8,060 nucleotides of DNA from Acidobacteriota bacterium. Lineage in GTDB: Bacteria > Acidobacteriota > Terriglobia > Acidoferrales > 2-02-FULL-67-57. Each line of letters begins with the position of its first letter. Positions within the stretch are counted from its first letter, which is position 1. The DNA lies in contig JACQTG010000220.1 in assembly GCA_016210895.1 (NCBI GenBank), positions 1-8,060 on the forward strand, given 5' to 3'. This document shows, one piece after another, positions 1-8,060 of the stretch. The notes beneath the pieces were generated by a model. It made no database searches and had not been told where the DNA came from. It saw only the letters and a program-made list of their open reading frames with translations. A program made the translations under genes and the position numbers.

Positions 1-140
1 AAGCCTTTTTCCGCCAGCGTAGCCGCCACATCGTGGGTGTGGAGGACGCGAAAGCCTTTCTCCGCCGCTTTGCGCTCTACGGCCGCCACGGCGGCTTCCA
101 CCGACTGCTTGGTTTCAATCGTATACTCGAAATTCTCCAT
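1..140 (-). CDS. DUF302 domain protein, N-terminal part (runs off the window)
   Basis: Reading leftward from an ATG at 140, the first 46 codons are visible; the gene continues beyond base 1. The product begins MENFEYTIETKQSVEAAVAA and continues into a KGFRVLHTHDV segment. The early YTIET strand, a helix rich in Ala/Val/Glu and the GFRVLHTHDV strand are the usual opening of DUF302 proteins, small alpha/beta proteins of uncertain function often found near redox or sulfur genes. No signal peptide is seen, so it is probably cytoplasmic. The start is supported by AGAAGGGG lying a few bases upstream. It is the last visible gene of the minus-strand redox cluster, separated from the four-cysteine protein by about 150 bases. 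The family call rests on recognising the N-terminal pattern only. Confidence 0.7.
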   Translation of the reverse strand, partial: MENFEYTIETKQSVEAAVAAVERKAAEKGFRVLHTHDVAATLAEKG

Positions 141-175
141 CGTAGCCCCTTCTCTGGTTTTATTTGTTTCTCGCG

Positions 176-192
176 CGGGGGACATGCCCCCG
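176..192. other. Short GC hairpin between the DUF302 and four-Cys genes
   Basis: The arms CGGGGG (176-181) and CCCCCG (187-192) form a perfect 6-bp stem around a 5-base loop. On the minus strand it lies after the four-Cys gene and about 36 bases before the DUF302 start. It is followed by an A-rich rather than T-rich stretch, so it is not a typical intrinsic terminator. It may act as a weak processing or attenuation structure. No other signal was recognised in 141-292. Confidence 0.3.
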
Positions 193-292
193 GCCCTCAT
201 GACACAGAGCTCTTGGACATCGTACCCCAGCGGTTAGTCCTCCTGGCGGGCTTGTGTCGCTGCCGGTGGCCTACCCTCCGGTCGTCCGGCCC

Positions 293-628
293 TCAGTGAT
301 TCTGGCGGGCAGCCTCGGCTTCCCGTTGGCCTGCGGTGCGGAGCAACCAGGCGACGTACTGCTCCGCCAGATCGGATTGCTGCGCGGCCAGGTCCCAGCC
401 CTGGGTATTGACGTGCTGGCAGGGGAAAGCTTCCTCCTGATAGTCGGACGGCACAAAGGGGCGCATGGGACACCAGCCACAACGATCCTCTTCTCGCTCC
501 TTGCTCGCCTGGCCATAGCGCAGGCAGGCGTAGGTGTGCTCGAAGAAATTGGACAGGCGGTGCCGGCGGATTTCTTCCGCTTCGGCCCCTAAACGTCGGG
601 CCATTTCGCGTTTGTCCACGCCGCTCAT
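293..628 (-). CDS. Hypothetical protein with four conserved-looking cysteines
   Basis: A 111-residue soluble protein with no signal peptide or membrane segment. I do not recognise the family. Its N-terminal third is a basic/acidic helix (residues 5-30). Four cysteines follow: Cys35, Cys50, Cys53 (in RCGWCP) and Cys70 (in FPCQHV), with His72 beside the last. The C-terminal third (80-109) is an Ala/Gln/Glu-rich helix. The Cys-x14-Cys-x2-Cys-x16-Cys spacing would suit a zinc site or an iron-sulfur cluster, but neither is proven. The ATG at 628 has AAGGA about nine bases upstream. It lies 64 bases after cytochrome c gene 1 on the same strand and is probably co-transcribed with it. The reading frame is credible from its start signal, operon position and non-random composition; its function is unknown. 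Confidence 0.6.
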   Translation of the reverse strand: MSGVDKREMARRLGAEAEEIRRHRLSNFFEHTYACLRYGQASKEREEDRCGWCPMRPFVPSDYQEEAFPCQHVNTQGWDLAAQQSDLAEQYVAWLLRTAGQREAEAARQNH

Positions 629-692
629 CGCTCGGTTTCCTTCGCTGGCTTCCGCCGACAGGCGCCCGAAGCGCGGACGTGCCGGCTGGCAG

Positions 693-1028
693 CTACTTTT
701 TCGCCAGGCTGCGCACGTAGGCGATCACGTTCGCCAGCTCCTCCTCCGTCATTCCTTTCACCGGCTTCATCTTCCCCGTGCCTTCGGTAATCTCCTTGTG
801 CAGGTCGGCGTCGCTCTTGGCCTGGACTTCCTTCGCGCCCAGGTGGTGCATCTCGACCTTCATCATCTTGGCGATGGCATCCTTGCCTTCGCCGGCTGCG
901 CCGTGACAGGTGGCGCACTTCTTGGTGAAGACGGCCTTGCCTGCCGCCGCATCACCGCTGCCCACCAGCAGCGCCGGTGCCGCCATTGCCATGACCAGGA
1001 CCAAGCCCAGGGTTTGCCAGCGTGTCAT
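693..1028 (-). CDS. Small periplasmic class I c-type cytochrome (paralog 1, Met-ligated)
   Basis: A 111-residue exported monohaem cytochrome c, expected to shuttle electrons in the periplasm. Residues 1-28 are a signal peptide with an LVLVMAMAAPALLV hydrophobic core. The haem motif CATCH gives Cys38, Cys41 and axial His42. The GTGKMKPVKG loop supplies Met87 as the likely sixth ligand. The last helix (LANVIAYVRSLAKK) is the typical C-terminal helix of this fold. The start is well supported: GGAGG lies five bases before the ATG. It is a gap-free, equal-length paralog of the cytochrome at 1945-2280, with about 61 of the last 83 residues identical by hand count. It lies 54 bases after the zinc-ribbon gene. 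I found no convincing promoter of its own, so it probably shares the OsmC transcript. The redox partner cannot be named. Confidence 0.9.
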   Translation of the reverse strand: MTRWQTLGLVLVMAMAAPALLVGSGDAAAGKAVFTKKCATCHGAAGEGKDAIAKMMKVEMHHLGAKEVQAKSDADLHKEITEGTGKMKPVKGMTEEELANVIAYVRSLAKK

Positions 1029-1082
1029 CGTTTCCTCCTCGTTGGGTTTCGCCTGCCCGTAGTCTACCTAATAAGAATGATT

Positions 1083-1262
1083 TCAAGCCGCACGCCGGCG
1101 CGCCAGAGTTCGGCGTTCGGTGGCTTTCTTGGCCAGCACGAGCGGGCGCGTCGCCAGCTGCCGCAGGCGCGTCCAGCAGTTCGGACATTGCGTCCCGCGT
1201 TCAGTTTGCGCCAGCAACGCGGCTAGCCTCGGGAGTTTCGCTCCACAGATTGGGCATTCCAT
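1083..1262 (-). CDS. Small zinc-ribbon protein, 59 residues
   Basis: A tiny cytoplasmic protein that opens with MECPICGAKL and has a second CPNC pair 21 residues after the first. The two Cys-x2-Cys knuckles (residues 3-6 and 26-29) are a classic zinc ribbon, here probably a four-Cys zinc site. The tail is strongly basic (RRTLARRRAA), which could contact nucleic acid or an acidic partner. Two in-frame ATGs stand side by side, at 1265 and 1262. The Shine-Dalgarno GGAGG (minus strand, 1272-1268) is two bases from the first and five from the second, so I chose 1262. It starts about 14 bases after the OsmC stop, and its binding site fills that gap, so the two are almost certainly co-transcribed. 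Function is unknown; a regulatory or chaperone role is only a guess. Confidence 0.75.
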   Translation of the reverse strand: MECPICGAKLPRLAALLAQTERGTQCPNCWTRLRQLATRPLVLAKKATERRTLARRRAA

Positions 1263-1276
1263 CATTTCCTCCCTCT

Positions 1277-1729
1277 TTACCCAAGGGGTGCCGGGGCGAT
1301 TACTTCCAGCCGTGCCTGCACGCGCACGGGAACGGACAAGGCATTGGCGACGATGCAGGCGTGTTCGGCCTTTTCCAGCAATCGCTCGGCGAGCGGGATA
1401 TCGCTTTCCTTTTCGAGCGTCACGCGTGGACGAATCACCACTTCCGTGAACCGATAGCCTTTGCCCGGAACGCGCTCCAGGTGCGCTTCGGCCTCGGCCT
1501 GGTAGCCGACGAGGGTCAGGTTGTTCCGCTCCGCCACCGCGAGCAGCGTGCTCAGAAAGCAACTGCCGGCGGCAAACACCAGTAACAACTCCGACGACCA
1601 CAAGCCGGCCTCGCCGCCGAATTCCGGCGGAGCCGAAAACTTCACCGGCTCGCGCACCCCCGGTGCTTCGGCCCAGCCGATCTTGTCATTCATCCAGGTG
1701 ACAGAGACCTTGTAATTGTGCGTCTCCAT
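1277..1729 (-). CDS. OsmC/Ohr-family protein
   Basis: A 150-residue cytoplasmic protein of the OsmC/Ohr fold, a family of thiol-dependent hydroperoxide reductases and relatives. The two signature cysteines are present: Cys57 in the helix AAGSCFLSTLLAVAE and Cys125 in AEHACIVANAL. The WSSELLLVFAAGSC segment matches the family's central helix and the length is typical. It could detoxify organic peroxides or be a less characterised OsmC-like protein. The ATG at 1729 was chosen because homology begins there (METHNYKVSVTW), AGGGG lies eight bases upstream, and the possible 40-residue in-frame extension to 1849 has no family resemblance and would cross a predicted promoter. It heads an apparent unit with the zinc-ribbon gene and cytochrome 1. 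A sigma-54-like promoter and a binding-site hairpin lie directly upstream. Confidence 0.88.
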   Translation of the reverse strand: METHNYKVSVTWMNDKIGWAEAPGVREPVKFSAPPEFGGEAGLWSSELLLVFAAGSCFLSTLLAVAERNNLTLVGYQAEAEAHLERVPGKGYRFTEVVIRPRVTLEKESDIPLAERLLEKAEHACIVANALSVPVRVQARLEVIAPAPLG

Positions 1730-1737
1730 TCTGTTTG

Positions 1738-1753
1738 CCCCTGTCGTGAGGGG
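1738..1753 (-). promoter_or_regulatory. Hairpin covering the OsmC ribosome binding site
   Basis: On the minus strand CCCCT (1753-1749), a six-base loop and AGGGG (1742-1738) form a perfect 5-bp stem. AGGGG is the only good Shine-Dalgarno for the ATG at 1729, eight bases away, so the hairpin would hide it in any RNA that reads through from upstream. An RNA starting at the sigma-54-like promoter (predicted +1 near 1744) would lack the left arm and leave the site open. The pairing is visible; the effect is inferred. Confidence 0.4.
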
Positions 1754-1755
1754 AC

Positions 1756-1770
1756 GCAAGCCGATAACCA
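1756..1770 (-). promoter_or_regulatory. Sigma-54-like promoter (-24/-12) for OsmC
   Basis: The minus strand reads TGGTTATCGGCTTGC. TGG at -24 and TTGC at -12 match the sigma-54 consensus, and the GG-N10-GC spacing is exact; the intervening CAC of the consensus is not kept. The predicted start near 1744 leaves a leader of about 15 bases containing the AGGGG binding site. Its position between cytochrome 2 and OsmC, downstream of a sigma-54 activator gene, adds weight. Confidence 0.5.
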
Positions 1771-1850
1771 TTTGTCCAGTGGGTGTCTGTGTCCTTAGTC
1801 GATTCAAAACAAACAAGATAGTAGCTTTTGCTAGGCGCGCCATTTCCATT

Positions 1851-1923
1851 CCCGTTGCGGGTCTTGGGCAGAAAGCCCTCTACTGCGCCAAAACCCGCAG
1901 AAGACACTACGACCGCGAGCGGG
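1851..1923 (-). other. Set of mutually exclusive hairpins after cytochrome c gene 2
   Basis: Several overlapping stems share the same bases. On the minus strand CCCGC (1923-1919) can pair with GCGGG (1898-1894), which is followed at once by TTTTGG, a weak terminator shape for the cytochrome transcript. CTGCG (1900-1896) can instead pair with CGCAG (1887-1883) around GGTTTTGG. TGCGGGT (1899-1893) can pair over seven bases with ACCCGCA (1862-1856), enclosing an inner GGGC/GCCC hairpin. CCCG/CGGG at 1861-1851 is another option. It may be a terminator or attenuator, or a DNA operator; this region holds no gene that I can support. Confidence 0.4.
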
Positions 1924-1944
1924 ATAGGAAAGTGGTGCAAGGAG

Positions 1945-2280
1945 CTACTTCTTGGCCAGTGTACGAACGTAGGCGATGACGTTGGCCAAGTCAGCGTCGG
2001 TCAGGCCCTTGACCGGCTTCTTTTTGTCCGTGCCTTCGGTGATGACCTTGCTCAGGTCGGCGTCGCTCTTGGCCTGAATTTCTTTGGTGCCGAGGTGACG
2101 CATCTCGACCTTGAGCATCTTGGCAATTTTCTCGTTGCCTTCGCCGTTGGGGCCATGGCAGGACGCGCACTTTTTGGCGTAAAGTGCTTTGCCGGCTTCG
2201 GTCTCGCCGGCTCCAACCAGCCAAGTCCCTGAGATGATAACGAGCAGAGCAATCAGTCCAGCAAACCCTGCGTATCGCAT
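1945..2280 (-). CDS. Small periplasmic c-type cytochrome (paralog 2, lacks the usual Met)
   Basis: A 111-residue exported monohaem cytochrome c. Residues 1-28 form a signal peptide (hydrophobic LIALLVIISGTWLVGA). CASCH gives Cys38, Cys41 and His42; the last helix is LANVIAYVRTLAKK. It is a paralog of the cytochrome at 693-1028, but where that copy has GTGKMKPVKG this one reads GTDKKKPVKG, so the expected axial Met87 is Lys. Met55 and Met60, present in both copies, are other possible ligands; otherwise the haem would be Lys-ligated, five-coordinate or water-ligated. The start is sound: GGAGG lies five bases before the ATG. The gene sits 81 bases after the sigma-54 regulator gene, with a strong sigma-54 promoter in the gap, so it is the most likely direct target of that regulator. 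It may transfer electrons or sense ligand or redox state. Confidence 0.9.
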   Translation of the reverse strand: MRYAGFAGLIALLVIISGTWLVGAGETEAGKALYAKKCASCHGPNGEGNEKIAKMLKVEMRHLGTKEIQAKSDADLSKVITEGTDKKKPVKGLTDADLANVIAYVRTLAKK

Positions 2281-2337
2281 TGCTTCCTCCTCTGCCTCCG
2301 TCAGCTTAGATGGGCGAGGGCCCCAGGTGTTGCCTCG

Positions 2338-2353
2338 GGCAATTACGATGCCA
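2338..2353 (-). promoter_or_regulatory. Sigma-54 promoter (-24/-12) for cytochrome c paralog 2
   Basis: The minus strand reads TGGCATCGTAATTGCC. TGGCA at -24 and TTGC at -12 match the sigma-54 consensus with exact GG-N10-GC spacing. The predicted start is near 2327, giving a leader of about 47 bases before the ATG at 2280. It lies directly after the gene for a sigma-54 activator. A 13-base dyad TTGCC-CGA-GGCAA (2342-2330) overlaps the -12 element and could bind a protein or fold. Confidence 0.75.
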
Positions 2354-2361
2354 TTCGCAGG

Positions 2362-3789
<1,428 letters not shown>

Positions 3790-3794
3790 CGGCC

Positions 3795-4118
3795 TCACTC
3801 CCGCGCCACGCGCAGGCGGGCCTCGAGGCGCTGGGCGTGCGCCAGGATTTCGCCGAGCAGGCTGTGTTCTTCCTCGCTCAACTCCTCTGACTCCCGCAGC
3901 AGGTGGAGCGAGGCCAGGATACCGGCCAGACGGTTGCGCAGGCTGTGGGCTTGCGTGCGGGTGAGCCCGTTGGGGCTGGCGGCGAGGTCACGCGCCAGGG
4001 CGTTGAACTCTTGCCCTACCTCGCCCACCCGATCCGTGCGGCTGGCAAAGCCGACTTGCGGGCGCTGACCCGTCTGCAACCGCTCAAACGCTTTGCGCAA
4101 CTCTTCCACCCAACTCAT
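3795..4118 (-). CDS. Stand-alone HAMP + DHp-like protein without ATPase domain
   Basis: A 107-residue soluble protein with no membrane segment. Residues 5-45 resemble a HAMP domain: amphipathic helix, TGQ turn, then GEVGQEFNALARDL, as in the second HAMP helix. Residues 52-105 resemble a histidine-kinase dimerisation/phosphotransfer helical hairpin, with an H-box-like AHSLRNRLAGILASLHLL carrying His58, a turn at ESEELSEEE and a second long helix to the C terminus. There is no N box, DxGxG or G2 motif, so it cannot bind ATP as a kinase does. Its TGA is interleaved with an alternative GTG start of the regulator gene, implying joint translation. It could be a histidine phosphotransferase (as Spo0B and ChpT use DHp-like folds), a dimerising adaptor, or a phosphatase of the regulator. 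The usual acidic residue after the His is Ser here, as in PhoQ. The domain call is by eye. Confidence 0.75.
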   Translation of the reverse strand: MSWVEELRKAFERLQTGQRPQVGFASRTDRVGEVGQEFNALARDLAASPNGLTRTQAHSLRNRLAGILASLHLLRESEELSEEEHSLLGEILAHAQRLEARLRVARE

Positions 4119-4153
4119 AGACGGCTTCTCGCTGTCGGTCTTCCTGTCGCCAA

Positions 4154-4162
4154 TGCTATGAT
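4154..4162 (+). promoter_or_regulatory. Extended -10 sigma-70-type promoter for the globin kinase operon
   Basis: TGCTATGAT fits the extended -10 pattern TGn-TATAAT with one mismatch; no good -35 is present, as is common for extended -10 promoters. The predicted start is near 4169, about 41 bases before the ATG at 4210. An alternative sigma-54-like candidate at 4168-4183 has GG-N10-GC spacing, but its flanks are poor. Confidence 0.4.
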
Positions 4163-4174
4163 GAGCACGGCCTC

Positions 4175-4203
4175 ATTATGGCTTGCGAAATGAATGGCGG
4201 CAA
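4175..4203 (-). promoter_or_regulatory. Sigma-70-type promoter for the HAMP-DHp/regulator operon
   Basis: On the minus strand TTGCCG (4203-4198) and CATAAT (4180-4175) are separated by 17 bases, four and five matches to the -35 and -10 consensus. The predicted start is near 4168, with a leader of about 50 bases to the ATG at 4118. The footprint overlaps the plus-strand promoter, so only one polymerase could occupy the region at a time. Confidence 0.4.
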
Positions 4204-4209
4204 GCGGCG

Positions 4210-5892
4210 ATGGACAATCTCCTGGAGGAAATGAAGAGTTACATCGGCTGGACGGAGGCCGATGCGCGTCTGCTGGTTGAGGTGGGGCCGGCGCTCGAAC
4301 CCCACCTGCCCGCCCTGGCCGACGTGTTCTACGAGAAGATTCTCGAGAACCCGAACGCGGCGCGGGTTTTGAGCGGCCCGGAGCAGTTGCGGCGTCTGAA
4401 GGGGACGCTGCAGCAGTGGGCGCGGGGGCTGTTCGGTGGGCGCTACGAGCAGGCCTACGCGGAAGAGCGGATGGACATTGGGCAGCGGCACGTGCGCGCC
4501 GGTGTGCCGCAGAAATACGTGATCAGCGCCATGAACGTGGTGCGGGTTTTCCTCCTCAAGGCGGTGGACCAGGCGCTCGGCGACCCGGCGCGCGCCGCCG
4601 ACACCAAGCGCGCTCTGAACAAGATCCTGGACCTCGACCTAAACCTGATGTGCGAGTCTTATTTCGAGGCCAGCGTGCGCGAGCTGCGCGCGCTCAACGC
4701 GCGGCTCGAGGCCGCCAACCTGGAGTTGGCCGAGTTGAGCCGCGTCAAAGACGAGTTTCTCGCCCACACCTCGCACGAGCTGCGCACTCCCCTTAACTCC
4801 ATTCTCGGCTTCAGCAAGCTCATCCTCGACGGCCTTTGCCAGAGCCACGAGGAGGAGCGGGAGCTGATGCGCGAGGTGTTTGACAGCGCACAGCACCTGC
4901 TGGGCATTGTCAACGACATCCTCGACATCGCCAAGATCGAGGCCGGCAAGCTGAAGCTTGCGCCCGGGCGGGTCGAGCTGCGGCCGCTGTTCGACCAAGT
5001 GCTGGCGGTGGTGGCCGTGCAGGCGGAATCCAAACAGTTGAAGCTGGTGGATGAAAGCGCCGGACGGGCCCTTCCGCTTGTCTACGCCGACGAGAACCGG
5101 CTCCGCCAAGTGCTCATTAACCTGCTCGGCAACGCGGTGAAGTTCACCGACGAGGGCTGGGTGACCCTGCGGGCCCACAGCGACCGGGTTCCCGGGCATA
5201 TCCTGGTTGAGGTCCAGGACACCGGCATCGGCATTCCGCTCGAGCGGCAAGCCGAGCTCTTCGAGAAATTCAAGCAGGTGGACACCAGCTTTACTCGCCG
5301 GCACGGCGGCAGCGGCTTGGGGCTGGCCATCAGCCGCAGGCTGGTGGAGATGATGGGCGGGCGAATTGAACTGGAGAGCGGCGGCGAAGGCCTGGGCACG
5401 ACCGTGCGCTTCACCGTACCGCTCCATACGCCCATCGAAGACCGACCGCACCGGGCCAAGCAGGAAGCCTTGGCCATTGCCGGCCCGGCGGAGGGTGTGC
5501 GCATCCTGGTCGTCGACAATGACCCCAGCTTCCGCCGGTATATGCGGGACTTACTCGTGCGACAGGGGTTCGCCGTGGTGACGGCGGGGAGCTTTGCCGA
5601 TGCGCTCGACGCAGCCGAGCGGTTTCATCCCGCGCTGGCCGTGGTGGACTGGGCCTTGCCCGTTAGCCCCAGCCGCGCCTACGGCGACGGCATCGACCTG
5701 ATCGCGACCTTCCGCCACCGCTTCTCGCTGCCCGCGATCCTGGTAACCGGACACAAGCCTTCTGTTGCCCTAGCGCAGGTACGGAAAGCCGACTTGACGC
5801 CACCACCTCCCGTCCTCCGCAAGCCGGTGGAAACCGACGCCTTGCTGGAAACGGTGCAGAAACTGCTTCAGAGCCCGGCCCGACGCATCTAG
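4210..5892 (+). CDS. Globin-coupled hybrid histidine kinase (protoglobin-HisKA-HATPase-REC)
   Basis: A 560-residue cytoplasmic sensor with no membrane segment. Residues 1-155 form a protoglobin-type haem domain; the segment IGQRHVRAGVPQKYVISAMN supplies the likely proximal His94, so it should bind O2, CO or NO. A short coiled coil (155-180) leads to HisKA with phospho-site His189 (HTSHELRTPLNSILG). The ATPase domain has an N box with Asn308, DTGIGIP (337-343), an F box (FEKFKQVD) and GGSGLGLAI. A C-terminal receiver (430-555) has acidic Asp436/Asp438, acceptor Asp480, Thr513 and Lys538, making this a hybrid kinase that needs a His phosphotransfer partner. Its beta3-alpha3 loop is longer than usual. 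I chose the ATG at 4210, where globin homology begins; an in-frame TTG at 4183 has no binding site. It is divergent from the regulator operon, and the next gene follows after three bases. Confidence 0.93.
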   Translation: MDNLLEEMKSYIGWTEADARLLVEVGPALEPHLPALADVFYEKILENPNAARVLSGPEQLRRLKGTLQQWARGLFGGRYEQAYAEERMDIGQRHVRAGVPQKYVISAMNVVRVFLLKAVDQALGDPARAADTKRALNKILDLDLNLMCESYFEASVRELRALNARLEAANLELAELSRVKDEFLAHTSHELRTPLNSILGFSKLILDGLCQSHEEERELMREVFDSAQHLLGIVNDILDIAKIEAGKLKLAPGRVELRPLFDQVLAVVAVQAESKQLKLVDESAGRALPLVYADENRLRQVLINLLGNAVKFTDEGWVTLRAHSDRVPGHILVEVQDTGIGIPLERQAELFEKFKQVDTSFTRRHGGSGLGLAISRRLVEMMGGRIELESGGEGLGTTVRFTVPLHTPIEDRPHRAKQEALAIAGPAEGVRILVVDNDPSFRRYMRDLLVRQGFAVVTAGSFADALDAAERFHPALAVVDWALPVSPSRAYGDGIDLIATFRHRFSLPAILVTGHKPSVALAQVRKADLTPPPPVLRKPVETDALLETVQKLLQSPARRI

Positions 5893-5895
5893 CCG

Positions 5896-6312
5896 ATGCC
5901 TACCGTTCTCATCGTCGAGGACAACCCCAGCGTGGCGAAATTCTACGCCCTGGCGCTCGAGCGTGGCGGTCGGATGCACGCCCTGCGGGTCAGCACGGGA
6001 GAGGAAGCGCTGGCGCGGGCGCAGGCAGGGGAGGTGGACCTGGTGCTGTTGGATATTTCTCTCTCCAGCTTCACCTACCAGGGCCGTATCATTGATGGCC
6101 TGCAGCTATCCCATCTGTTGAAGAGCGACCCGCGCACCGGACACATCCCTATCCTGCTGGCCACGGCGCATGCGATGGAAGGCGATCGCGAGCGCTTTCT
6201 GGCGGCTTCCGGGGCCGATGGATACTTGCAGAAGCCGATTTACGACCCCCAGGTTTTAGTAGAGAAGGTCAGGAGCTTGCTAGGGCAATCTGGCCGGCGC
6301 AATTTGGGCTAA
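5896..6312 (+). CDS. Single-domain response regulator (DivK-like)
   Basis: A 138-residue stand-alone receiver with no output domain. Acidic pocket Glu8/Asp9 (IVEDN), acceptor Asp53 (LVLLDIS), Thr90 (LLATAH) and Lys113 (QKPI) are all present, so it should be phosphorylated normally. The loop after Asp53 is about seven residues longer than in a typical receiver (SSFTYQGRIIDG), echoing the lengthened loop in the kinase's own receiver. The start codon lies three bases after the kinase stop, so the two are translationally coupled and the kinase is the obvious phosphodonor. Such proteins act as phosphate sinks, shuttles or allosteric partners. It could take phosphate away from the sigma-54 regulator branch or signal to an unseen target. 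The short gap leaves no room for its own promoter. Confidence 0.92.
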   Translation: MPTVLIVEDNPSVAKFYALALERGGRMHALRVSTGEEALARAQAGEVDLVLLDISLSSFTYQGRIIDGLQLSHLLKSDPRTGHIPILLATAHAMEGDRERFLAASGADGYLQKPIYDPQVLVEKVRSLLGQSGRRNLG

Positions 6313-6423
6313 AAGACCCATTCCAGCGCCCTTGAACCCACCCTCGGGCCAGGTGACCTTTCGTCAGCCAGCCTAACATCTTTTGTTGTAGGCAGTTAAA
6401 GCTGCTCCCCGCTGATGGTTTTC

Positions 6424-6438
6424 TGGAACAGCGCGTGC
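6424..6438 (+). promoter_or_regulatory. Possible sigma-54-like promoter before the degenerate receiver
   Basis: TGGAACAGCGCGTGC has TGG at -24 and TGC at -12 with GG-N10-GC spacing. The first T of TTGC is missing. The predicted start near 6450 would give an 18-base leader holding the AGAGGTGG binding site at 6453-6460. The match is weaker than the two minus-strand candidates and could be chance. Confidence 0.3.
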
Positions 6439-6452
6439 CATTGCGAGACCAG

Positions 6453-6460
6453 AGAGGTGG
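6453..6460 (+). promoter_or_regulatory. Ribosome binding site that fixes the start of the degenerate receiver
   Basis: AGAGGTGG lies seven bases before the GTG at 6468. The earlier in-frame GTG at 6435 has no comparable site upstream, so 6468 is the preferred start. Confidence 0.5.
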
Positions 6461-6467
6461 AAGCATA

Positions 6468-6911
6468 GTGCAGAGGCGGAATCACCAACCCACACAGGCT
6501 GGGACCGCCAGGAGGGCCGCCACGAAACCGGAGAGGCCCCGCGTTCTCGTGCTGGGTTCGCGCGCAGCTTTTCGTCCGCTCTTCGATGCGCTGGAGGCAG
6601 AGCACAGCTTTCAGTTCGACTATGTTACGGATGTGTCGACCCTCCCCACCTATTTGGCTAGCCACGCCCCCAGCGCGGTTTTGCTCGAAGCCGAGCCTCG
6701 GGCACAGACCGCGCGGGAGCCGCTTGCTTGGTTGGACACGCTGAAGAGAGAAACACCGGTGGTCGTGCTGGCTTCGCGGGACGACGTACCCTTCTACTTG
6801 GCGGTGATGGAGCGGGGGGCCTTTGACTACTTTACCGCGAGCACACCGCTGCGGGACGTCACTCGCGTGCTCGAAAATGCCATTCGCTGGCACCAACACC
6901 AAGCCGCTTAG
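6468..6911 (+). CDS. Degenerate receiver-like (pseudo-REC) protein
   Basis: A 147-residue protein with a basic, low-complexity N-terminal tail (1-24) followed by a receiver-like alternating fold: RPRVLVLGS, AVLLEAEP, PVVVLASRDD, GAFDYFTAST and a final helix. The key sites are changed. The acidic pair is Gly/Ser, the phospho-acceptor position in AVLLEAEP is Glu74 instead of Asp, Ser103 replaces Thr, and the invariant Lys position is Ala124. It should not be phosphorylated in the usual way. The Glu could mimic a permanently phosphorylated state, or the domain may be only a protein-binding module. It starts 155 bases after the DivK-like gene on the same strand. A weak sigma-54-like promoter lies in that gap, which otherwise holds nothing I recognise. 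An in-frame GTG at 6435 is the alternative start. Confidence 0.75.
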   Translation: MQRRNHQPTQAGTARRAATKPERPRVLVLGSRAAFRPLFDALEAEHSFQFDYVTDVSTLPTYLASHAPSAVLLEAEPRAQTAREPLAWLDTLKRETPVVVLASRDDVPFYLAVMERGAFDYFTASTPLRDVTRVLENAIRWHQHQAA

Positions 6912-6974
6912 GTACTTGCTGATGCCCCACGGCCAAGCCGGCGACAACCAAAGGCGCACGGCAAGGATCCTTTT

Positions 6975-7004
6975 TTGAACTAATGACAGAACTAGGGGTA
7001 AGAT
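6975..7004 (+). promoter_or_regulatory. Sigma-70-type promoter for the decaheme cytochrome
   Basis: TTGAAC (6975-6980) and TAAGAT (6999-7004), four matches each, are separated by 18 bases. The predicted start is near 7011, giving a leader of about 64 bases. The leader begins almost at a 10-base perfect palindrome, GTTGATCAAC (7018-7027), itself flanked by CGGT and ACCG, which could be an operator or an RNA hairpin. A T-run after AAGGATCC at 6971-6976 may weakly terminate upstream transcription. Confidence 0.4.
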
Positions 7005-7074
7005 TACGCACGGTCAAGTTGATCAACAACCGGTCGGCGGCCTCCGCGCTGCCCCGCAGAAAGGGAGAACGACC

Positions 7075-8028
7075 GTGAGAATCGGACATGTTTCGCGCTT
7101 TCGTCTCCAATATGTCCTGTTTGTCCTCATGCTCACTCTGGGCCTGGGGGTTTTTCTCGCCGCCAACCCTCGTCAGCGTATGGGGGTCAAGGCCCCGTCA
7201 GGCAACCCCGCCGAGTATGTCGGCGGCGAGGAGTGCGCCGCCTGCCACGCTGACATCGCCGAGGCCTTCCAGAAGAATCTCCACTACAAGACCTGGAACG
7301 ACACTTCGCTCGACTGGAGCCAGCGCGGCTGCGAGGCCTGCCACGGGCCGGGGCGCGAGCACATTGAGACGGGCGGCGACATCACCAAGGTGTTCAACTA
7401 CAAGGAAGTGTCGGCGCAAAAAGTCTCCGACGAGTGCTTGAGCTGCCACTTGCAGGCGGAGGAGCATTCAAACTTCCTGCGCGGCGAGCACGGACTGAAT
7501 ACCGTCTCCTGCATTGAATGCCATTCCGTCCACAATCCTCGGGTGCGCTCGCCGCTGCTCAAGGCCACGCAGCCGGCACTTTGCTATTCCTGCCACGGGG
7601 AGGTGCGTCCGGAGTTCAACAAGCCCTTCCGCCACCGCGTCCGCGAAGGCTTGATGGCCTGCACGGACTGCCACAACCAGCATGGCGGCTTCAACGTTCG
7701 CCAGACGCGCGAGGCCACCGGCACCGACTTGGTCTGTTACACCTGCCACGCCGATAAGCAGGGGCCGTTCGTCTTCGAGCATGCGCCCATCAAGGTGGAA
7801 GGCTGCACCATCTGCCACACCCCGCACGGCTCGGTGAACGCGCGCCTGCTCAAGCGCTCTCAACAGCATCTGCTCTGCCTGGAGTGCCACTCCGACCTGC
7901 CTGACGTTCCCGGCACGGCGCCCGGAACTCCCAGTTTCCACAATGTCACGACGGCCCGCTTCCGCAATTGCACCACCTGCCACGTCAACATTCACGGCTC
8001 GAATGTACATCGATTCTTCTTTGAATAG
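7075..8028 (+). CDS. DmsE/MtrA-family decaheme c-type cytochrome
   Basis: A 317-residue exported multihaem cytochrome. An N-terminal hydrophobic segment (residues 11-30) is a signal peptide or signal anchor; no lipobox Cys is seen. Ten CxxCH motifs follow, with first cysteines at residues 54, 86, 121, 146, 170, 196, 221, 244, 268 and 299. Further histidines suit bis-His ligation. Length and haem count match DmsE/MtrA proteins, which sit in the periplasm or within an outer-membrane barrel and carry electrons across the envelope to extracellular acceptors, or inward in PioA-type systems. The GTG start is supported by GGGAG seven bases upstream. The next gene begins 10 bases after the stop, as expected for an MtrA-MtrB pair. 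A named symbol is withheld because DmsE, MtrA and PioA cannot be told apart here. The direction of electron flow is unknown. Confidence 0.93.
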   Translation: MRIGHVSRFRLQYVLFVLMLTLGLGVFLAANPRQRMGVKAPSGNPAEYVGGEECAACHADIAEAFQKNLHYKTWNDTSLDWSQRGCEACHGPGREHIETGGDITKVFNYKEVSAQKVSDECLSCHLQAEEHSNFLRGEHGLNTVSCIECHSVHNPRVRSPLLKATQPALCYSCHGEVRPEFNKPFRHRVREGLMACTDCHNQHGGFNVRQTREATGTDLVCYTCHADKQGPFVFEHAPIKVEGCTICHTPHGSVNARLLKRSQQHLLCLECHSDLPDVPGTAPGTPSFHNVTTARFRNCTTCHVNIHGSNVHRFFFE

Positions 8029-8038
8029 GGGCATAGCC

Positions 8039-8060
8039 ATGTTCCGACGCATCCTTGTGT
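8039..8060 (+). CDS. Start of the next gene, probably the MtrB/PioB-like barrel partner
   Basis: Only seven codons are visible (MFRRILV), with an AGGGG site seven bases upstream of the ATG and a start 10 bases after the decaheme stop. The Met-Phe-Arg-Arg-hydrophobic opening suits a signal peptide. DmsE/MtrA-family genes are commonly followed by an MtrB/PioB outer-membrane beta-barrel gene, so that is the expected product, but the identity is inferred from position only. Confidence 0.45.

Follow-up and report, generated by a model that had tools for sequence, protein, structure and literature searches.

A possible four-step phosphorelay with a bare HAMP-DHp protein between a haem-globin kinase and an NtrC-type regulator

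How might a haem-globin histidine kinase that has receivers at hand and no DNA-binding output act on transcription, and what could a kinase-like protein without an ATPase domain do beside an NtrC-type sigma-54 activator? Both questions are raised by an 8,060-nt stretch of DNA from an Acidobacteriota bacterium (NCBI GenBank assembly GCA_016210895.1, contig JACQTG010000220.1, positions 1 to 8,060), here called the window. Given that the globin kinase and the stand-alone receiver encoded behind it (REC1) lack a DNA-binding output, and that the neighbour of the NtrC-type regulator, a 107-residue HAMP-DHp protein, lacks an ATPase, a relay would complete both halves. We tentatively favour a four-step relay in which what remains of the regulator's own kinase is a HAMP-DHp phosphotransferase; this histidine-bearing stub probably passes phosphate from the globin sensor kinase to the regulator.

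The steps of this relay, its signal and its target we infer from sequence as follows. The haem-globin kinase, to judge by its relatives, would bind a gas (oxygen or nitric oxide) and autophosphorylate on His189, and the phosphoryl group would then move to a receiver, for which REC1 is our first choice because it is the sole receiver common to all six modules described below; where a receiver is fused to the kinase, it may act as well as, or instead of, REC1. From the receiver the phosphoryl group would pass to His58 of the HAMP-DHp protein, a presumed dimer, and finally reach Asp54 of the regulator. The regulator would then activate sigma-54 promoters, probably including one ahead of the adjacent cytochrome c gene.

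The HAMP-DHp protein and its recurring gene module

The window carries two divergent gene sets (Table 1), with the genes for the HAMP-DHp protein, the regulator and a small c-type cytochrome running leftwards and those for the kinase, REC1, a receiver-like protein and a decahaem cytochrome running rightwards. A sequence-only reading of this DNA had picked out four residues as the parts of a relay, His189 and Asp480 in the kinase, His58 in the DHp protein and Asp54 in the regulator, and all four are present at these numbers (Asp54 counted from the ATG start); its parts list had overlooked REC1, whose start lies 3 nt behind the kinase stop. The coupling of the DHp and regulator genes was borne out as well, with 5 nt between the DHp stop and the regulator ATG and an alternative GTG start that overlaps the DHp gene. 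The regulator has the architecture of the NtrC family (REC, sigma-54 AAA+ and Fis-type helix-turn-helix domains by Pfam).

The DHp chain ends at residue 107, without a catalytic ATPase domain. Its DHp-type hairpin with a phosphorylatable histidine was recognized by sequence together with two helices (54-77 and 82-104) predicted by AlphaFold2, which modelled the protein with a predicted local distance difference test score (pLDDT) of 88.7 and placed further helices at 3-15, 23-26 and 30-46. On its own, the window protein gives a HisKA match of E 5e-5, under the Pfam cut-off (23.6 vs 26.9 bits), and no Pfam match to HAMP; across 48 family members (E <= 0.01), HisKA was detected in 41 and HAMP in 13. 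The family profile also matches PDB chimaeras of HAMP(Af1503) and the EnvZ DHp over positions 5-99 (best E 3e-5), and the bare HAMP-DHp appears to be a natural counterpart of that engineered construct. The Spo0B and ChpT families were found neither among the Pfam matches of the window protein (E <= 1) or of the 48 members (E <= 0.01) nor among the PDB matches of the profile at E <= 1; any kinship with them would be at most distant.

A search with the single protein returned only one relative besides itself, owing to limited sensitivity, and the idea of an orphan was rejected when a profile made from four sequences found 165. The best 120 of these were listed, of which 107 are no longer than 150 aa; the 13 longer rows were excluded from the counts. 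Loss of His58 in homologues had been put forward as one of the findings that would undo the relay, and His58 is kept in 106 of the 107 short relatives, with Asn62, at H+4, in 107/107. A chance or pseudogene origin of the 107-aa frame was ruled out by this alignment. The family divides in two: 43 sequences resemble HDIKNPLAGI and have Asp at H+1 in 43/43 (class I), and 59, the window's among them, follow HxLRNRLAGI, with a non-acidic H+1 in 57 (class II). At the position that separates the classes, the remaining 5 of the 107 carry other residues.

The DHp protein, the globin kinase and the regulator, whose genes form a conserved cluster in uncultured relatives of Acidobacteria, were found together in five further genomes (G743, G770, G865, G272 and G502), the co-occurrence that the sequence-only reading had named as a check, and a chance arrangement was rejected on this ground. 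The layout is the same throughout (NtrC <- DHp | kinase -> REC1), with NtrC behind DHp and REC1 behind the kinase, the NtrC gene of G502 leaving its contig after 89 codons. G743, G770 and G865 encode a class II DHp protein and a kinase with a fused receiver; G272 and G502 encode a class I DHp protein and kinases of 419 and 418 aa, respectively, without one. In class II, 2-12 nt separate DHp and NtrC; the distance grows to 36 nt in G272 and to 145 nt in G502. Identity of the class II modules to the window is 81-83% for NtrC, 76-78% for the kinase, 68-74% for REC1 and 50-58% for DHp, and the NtrC of G272 is 65-66% identical to the window's.

Linkage was also seen in larger samples. Among 249 genomes of the order of G272, kinase matches at E <= 1e-120 were confined to G272 and G502, as were DHp-only matches of family strength (E about 1e-50); the next DHp match, at 4e-26, is a 397-aa frame. 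Taking an equal size of the longest contig as an indirect sign of a shared contig, 13 of the 51 closest kinases (12 besides the window's) pair with a DHp-only protein, compared with 0/68 more distant kinases and a control with jittered sizes that gave a mean of 0.18 and a maximum of 3. The 13 are a lower bound, because only the best 120 of the 165 DHp proteins were listed and 105 of the 107 short ones entered the comparison. A search of 188 genomes (the phylum of a Myxococcota contig) with the window kinase at E <= 1e-68 found no match and, lacking a positive control, is uninformative.

Globin kinases with other surroundings were noted in two genomes. G175 holds two copies of a ~690-aa globin kinase (L123, L124), each followed by REC1 and accompanied by a same-strand NtrC-type gene, and no DHp-only match was reported there. 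In G103 (L122), the globin kinase module is flanked by two proteins (6850-7581 and 12438-12926) that we take, from their sequences, to be ScdA/RIC-like and hemerythrin-like, respectively, a hint of nitric oxide or oxygen stress.

Kinship with HAMP kinases and their NtrC-type partners

The nearest full-length relatives of the DHp protein are HAMP-HisKA-HATPase kinases with an N-terminus that, by eye, is apparently membrane-bound. At 10 of the 14 best-scoring loci (L127-L134, L139-L144), an NtrC gene adjoins the canonical kinase within about 230 nt, and at the other four no NtrC was found within the roughly 1 kb examined. The NtrCs beside canonical kinases are 62-71% identical to the window's over the stretch compared. 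In a tree of 18 NtrCs, which omits the G502 fragment, the module NtrCs fall among those of the canonical kinases (node 99/99), and the class II NtrCs form one clade (100/100). DHp protein and regulator are thus kin to a canonical HAMP kinase/NtrC pair. Because its nearest full-length relatives are HAMP kinases, most of them beside a related NtrC, the stub looks like that NtrC's kinase after loss of the sensor and the ATPase. The tree would fit either one loss of the catalytic domain or two, one each in class I and class II.

Full-length and reduced forms were not found side by side. At E <= 1e-18, 44 of 399 genomes gave one match each, 4 of them DHp-only and 40 in frames of at least 318 aa, and none of the 399 had both. 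A canonical kinase for the regulator elsewhere in the genome would, by the sequence-only reading, have spoken against the relay; no orthologue was found in the five related genomes, though other kinase matches are present (see below). The best matches to the canonical kinase in these five genomes are 32-37% identical, vs 51-69% among canonical kinases themselves; where the NtrC gene is complete (four genomes), the second-best NtrC reaches 43% identity. G103 has, in the slot of the DHp protein, a soluble 231-aa HisKA-HATPase protein in which the G1 box is altered from Asp to Asn and from Gly to Pro.

Routes from the globin kinase to the regulator

The kinase is joined to a protoglobin domain (Pfam E 3.8e-39), and its globin region matches the globin-coupled histidine kinase 5ohe (residues 3-153, E 1.3e-29); His94, kept in 119/119 rows with a residue there, is the presumed haem ligand. 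His189 is present in 120 of 120 aligned kinases, and in a smaller alignment of 22 sequences, among them the window's, H189, D480, T513 and K538 do not vary. The nearest named relatives come from Acidobacteria metagenome-assembled genomes (MAGs) and one Candidatus Xenobia MAG. A profile scan of contigs with the kinase alignment had general hybrid kinases among the matches listed (best 43% over residues 139-553; at most 51% over shorter pieces) and was not used for the neighbourhood argument.

The catalytic domain of this kinase might conceivably phosphorylate His58 in trans, with the DHp protein then serving NtrC as half of a split kinase, and CheA3/CheA4 of Rhodobacter offer a precedent as described (PMC3591291). 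In all six modules, a DHp protein without a catalytic domain does adjoin a kinase that has one. We nevertheless regard this scheme as very improbable: the globin kinase has a complete HisKA of its own and receivers that would go unneeded, and the acid at H+1 is lost in the window's class. This acid is thought to assist phosphorylation by ATP.

A hybrid kinase with a histidine phosphotransferase (Hpt) partner was rejected on results from related genomes. Searches for Hpt gave no match in G743, G770 and G865, whose completeness is unstated, and the matches of G272 and G502 lie only within frames of at least 746 aa, in agreement with the earlier statement that no Hpt protein is seen; G103 has one such frame of 765 aa, and G175 also has matches in frames of 138 and 254 aa. 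The phosphotransferase role that the sequence-only reading gave to the ATPase-less DHp protein would fit the negative Hpt searches, the conservation of His58 and the co-occurrence, though a phosphatase role, taken up below, competes with it. Its order H189-D480-H58-D54 does not hold as the general form: the fused-receiver route cannot be general because G272 and G502 combine DHp and regulator with a kinase that has no fused receiver, and REC1 is present in all six modules.

REC1 is the next gene after the globin kinase in six aligned loci (the window, G272, G502, G103 and two of G175), in which the residues of its complete, canonical active site (E8, D9, D53, T90 and K113) are invariant and its switch residue is aromatic in 6/6 (Tyr or Phe, three before the Lys); it also lies behind the kinase in G743, G770 and G865. 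We weakly favour REC1 as the general donor to His58. The receiver-like protein encoded behind REC1 in the window has, by eye, neither the acidic pair nor the acceptor aspartate; homologues (40-42%) follow REC1 in G770 and G865, none was found in the G743 locus at E <= 1e-5, and this pseudo-receiver may modulate the relay.

Several points weigh against donation by REC1, or against a relay as such. Phosphate could run from His189 to the kinase's own Asp480 and then to His58 and Asp54, a route we consider improbable, with REC1 as a sink; a phospho-sink is the likely role assigned to NmpT, the positional counterpart of REC1 in the NmpRSTU system discussed below (PMC11841059). Among kinases with a fused receiver, 118/118 retain Asp480 and Lys538; 13/13 contig-paired kinases have such a receiver, and its switch position is aliphatic in 52/52 of the closest kinases. 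As described for CckA-type receivers, a shuttle can do without the aromatic switch residue (PMC9981736); the aliphatic residue would suit a non-allosteric shuttle, and by these features the fused receiver would be more shuttle-like than REC1. Set against this route are the two modules that have DHp and NtrC and no fused receiver, and the acidic pair of the fused receiver, which is D436-N437 and not two acids (Asn in 115 of the 118 sequences with a residue there). Two kinases that share 72% identity with the window's where they align (P0072, P0073) likewise end before the receiver, so that even close relatives may be able to dispense with the fused receiver. In alignments inspected by eye, the fused receiver and REC1 both have a longer-than-usual loop between the acceptor aspartate and the DG motif.

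For the relay through REC1 it is also awkward that the helix-1 sequences of REC1 and NtrC differ clearly (compared by eye, together with the fused REC), so that one DHp protein serving both is not obvious, and that REC1 also stands beside globin kinases without a DHp-only partner (G103, G175). Across a 396-genome sample of the phylum, the globin kinase was found in three genomes (G103, G175, G272) and the DHp-only protein in G272 alone. The large searches scored only the highest-ranking candidates of each genome, and genome completeness is unstated, so that absences, including those cited above in favour of the relay, are weak evidence. Each of the five DHp genomes has 7 to 24 other kinase matches, and an unrelated kinase could therefore still serve NtrC.

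Those kinases are also part of the case for the most serious rival, in which the HAMP-DHp protein would be a dedicated phosphatase or tether of NtrC, controlled by the kinase or REC1, and NtrC would be phosphorylated by another kinase or by small-molecule donors. This reading, which we rate as unlikely but weightier than the other two, is nearest to the logic of NmpRSTU, where the published model makes the globin kinase an off switch for the output (PMC6211767, PMC11841059), and PhyT, a comparable protein of Sphingomonas, was at first taken for a phosphatase (PMC5898713). The residues around His58 can be read in its favour, with the Asn at H+4 invariant and the acid at H+1 lost in class II, although the latter loss would fit a phosphotransferase too. 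Asn at H+4 is linked to phosphatase activity in HisKA kinases. The near-complete retention of His58 itself and the failure to find an orthologous kinase for NtrC in the five related genomes argue for the phosphotransferase instead.

As for the output of the proposed relay, a sigma-54 factor gene is present in 6/6 genomes searched, and sigma-54-like sites precede the cytochrome c gene in three of four loci, which suggests that this gene is a target of the regulator. The site in the window lies 57 bp before the gene with 3 mismatches (34 of 1000 shuffles were as good), that in G743 52 bp before with none (0/1000), and that in G770 53 bp before with 2 (7/1000). No convincing site was found before the cytochrome c gene of G865 (127/1000 shuffles as good), nor, in the window, before the second cytochrome (693-1028), before the decahaem gene or in the gap between DHp and kinase genes. 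The cytochrome homologue lies downstream of NtrC on the same strand, ~0.08 kb away in G743, ~0.5 kb in G770 and ~1.0 kb in G865.

Table 1. Features of the 8,060-nt window
Feature	Positions	Strand	Details
HAMP-DHp protein	3795..4118	-	107 aa; His58 in HSLRNRLAGI, Asn62 = H+4; without catalytic (CA) domain
NtrC-type sigma-54 regulator	2362..3798	-	REC (Asp54) + Sigma54_activat + HTH_8 (Pfam); ATG 3789 or GTG 3798
Protoglobin hybrid histidine kinase	4210..5892	+	ATG 4210; 560 aa; Protoglobin + HisKA + HATPase_c + Response_reg (Pfam)
REC1, stand-alone receiver	5896..6312	+	138 aa; Pfam E 2.6e-18; E8, D9, D53, T90, K113
Receiver-like protein without phospho-acceptor aspartate, optional neighbour	6435..6911	+	Response_reg E 0.03
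Sigma-54-promoter-like site	2338..2353	-	TGGCATCGTAATTGCC; 57 bp upstream of cytochrome c start
Small c-type cytochrome, possible regulator target	1945..2280	-	111 aa; Cytochrom_C E 1.3e-13
Second small c-type cytochrome	693-1028		111 aa; similar to 1945-2280 protein
OsmC-like gene	1277-1849		between the two small c-type cytochromes
DmsE-family decahaem cytochrome c, neighbour	7075..8028	+	TIGR03508 E 1e-78, 264.4 bits vs cut-off 192.2

Known relays and what the arrangement would mean

The earlier statement that no described system has this arrangement was too strong. NmpRSTU of Myxococcus xanthus, with its AfGcHK homologue in Anaeromyxobacter, combines receivers and a HisKA protein with a protoglobin kinase and an NtrC-type regulator (PMC6211767, PMC11841059), and the topology of the relay is known from PhyT (PMC5898713). 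As in the window, NmpRSTU is described with a soluble protoglobin kinase on top, a receiver protein encoded after the kinase, a HisKA protein that serves the NtrC-type regulator, whose gene is divergent in Anaeromyxobacter, and oxygen-utilization genes with sigma-54 sites. NmpU is reported to phosphorylate the receiver of NmpS and the first receiver of NmpT but to leave NmpR unphosphorylated. NmpS autophosphorylates and has NmpR as its sole target; in the model, NmpR is held in the off state by oxygen, and the regulon is oxygen-related (PMC6211767, PMC11841059). Autophosphorylation of AfGcHK is described as enhanced by oxygen (PMC8697598). Compared by these published descriptions and not by Nmp sequences, the systems differ in that NmpS is an active kinase (REC-HisKA-CA, CA being the catalytic domain), NmpT has two receivers to the one of REC1, and NmpU is not described as a hybrid. 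The HAMP-DHp protein, having neither REC nor CA, cannot be its own kinase, and the logic of NmpS cannot hold unchanged. G103 holds a HisKA-CA protein without REC in the slot of NmpS.

Other relays resemble the proposed one in topology. In SdrG-PhyT-PhyR of Sphingomonas, a kinase acts through a single-domain receiver and a kinase-derived phosphotransferase on the regulator, but PhyT is membrane-anchored with a catalytic domain thought to have degenerated, the sensors differ, and PhyR works through NepR and EcfG rather than sigma-54 (PMC5898713). In CckA-ChpT-CtrA, a dimeric DHp-type phosphotransferase connects an intermediate receiver with the output regulator, and ChpT retains at its C-terminus a Bergerat-fold domain in which ATP was not observed (PMC3433190). 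The protein studied here stops after the DHp hairpin and has an N-terminal HAMP, which sets it apart from ChpT and from Spo0B. Spo0F-Spo0B-Spo0A also has a dimeric DHp-type phosphotransferase in this place: phosphate runs from kinase to single receiver, kinase-derived phosphotransferase and regulator, and Spo0B keeps its C-terminal domain. To our knowledge, no smaller DHp-type phosphotransferase than a bare HAMP-DHp has been recognized. Among the literature matches listed (titles and the beginnings of abstracts, with subscription journals mostly outside), none describes a HAMP-DHp-only phosphotransferase or an acidobacterial globin relay. With the canonical HAMP-HisKA-HATPase/NtrC pair the module shares HAMP-DHp, an H-box (HEIRNPLAGI or HDIRNPLAGI in the pair) and, at most of the loci above, the NtrC neighbour; the pair differs in keeping the ATPase and the apparently membrane-bound N-terminus, and the DHp-only genomes have no match of this grade. 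The new feature is an output side that comes down to a bare HAMP-DHp; a close pathway has already been described.

Full HAMP kinase, soluble kinase of G103 with its altered ATP box, class I DHp protein and class II DHp protein may form a possible series from pair to relay, in which class I keeps the original kind of H-box and class II has changed much further. Every member has an NtrC-type gene for a neighbour, and the last three also share one kind of globin kinase and receiver as neighbours. It is conceivable, with somewhat less confidence than we give the relay itself, that a HAMP kinase/NtrC pair became the output half of a relay in place, its kinase reduced to a bare HAMP-DHp that is fed by a haem-globin kinase through a shared receiver. 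In a plain relay of this sort, a kinase-activating ligand would switch the output on, opposite to the NmpRSTU model. A few small soluble proteins would be enough to address the donor receiver, the rewiring and the direction of gas control. If the reading is true, the sign of gas control would be reversed relative to that model, and HAMP would have been left as a dimer clamp or an input gate.

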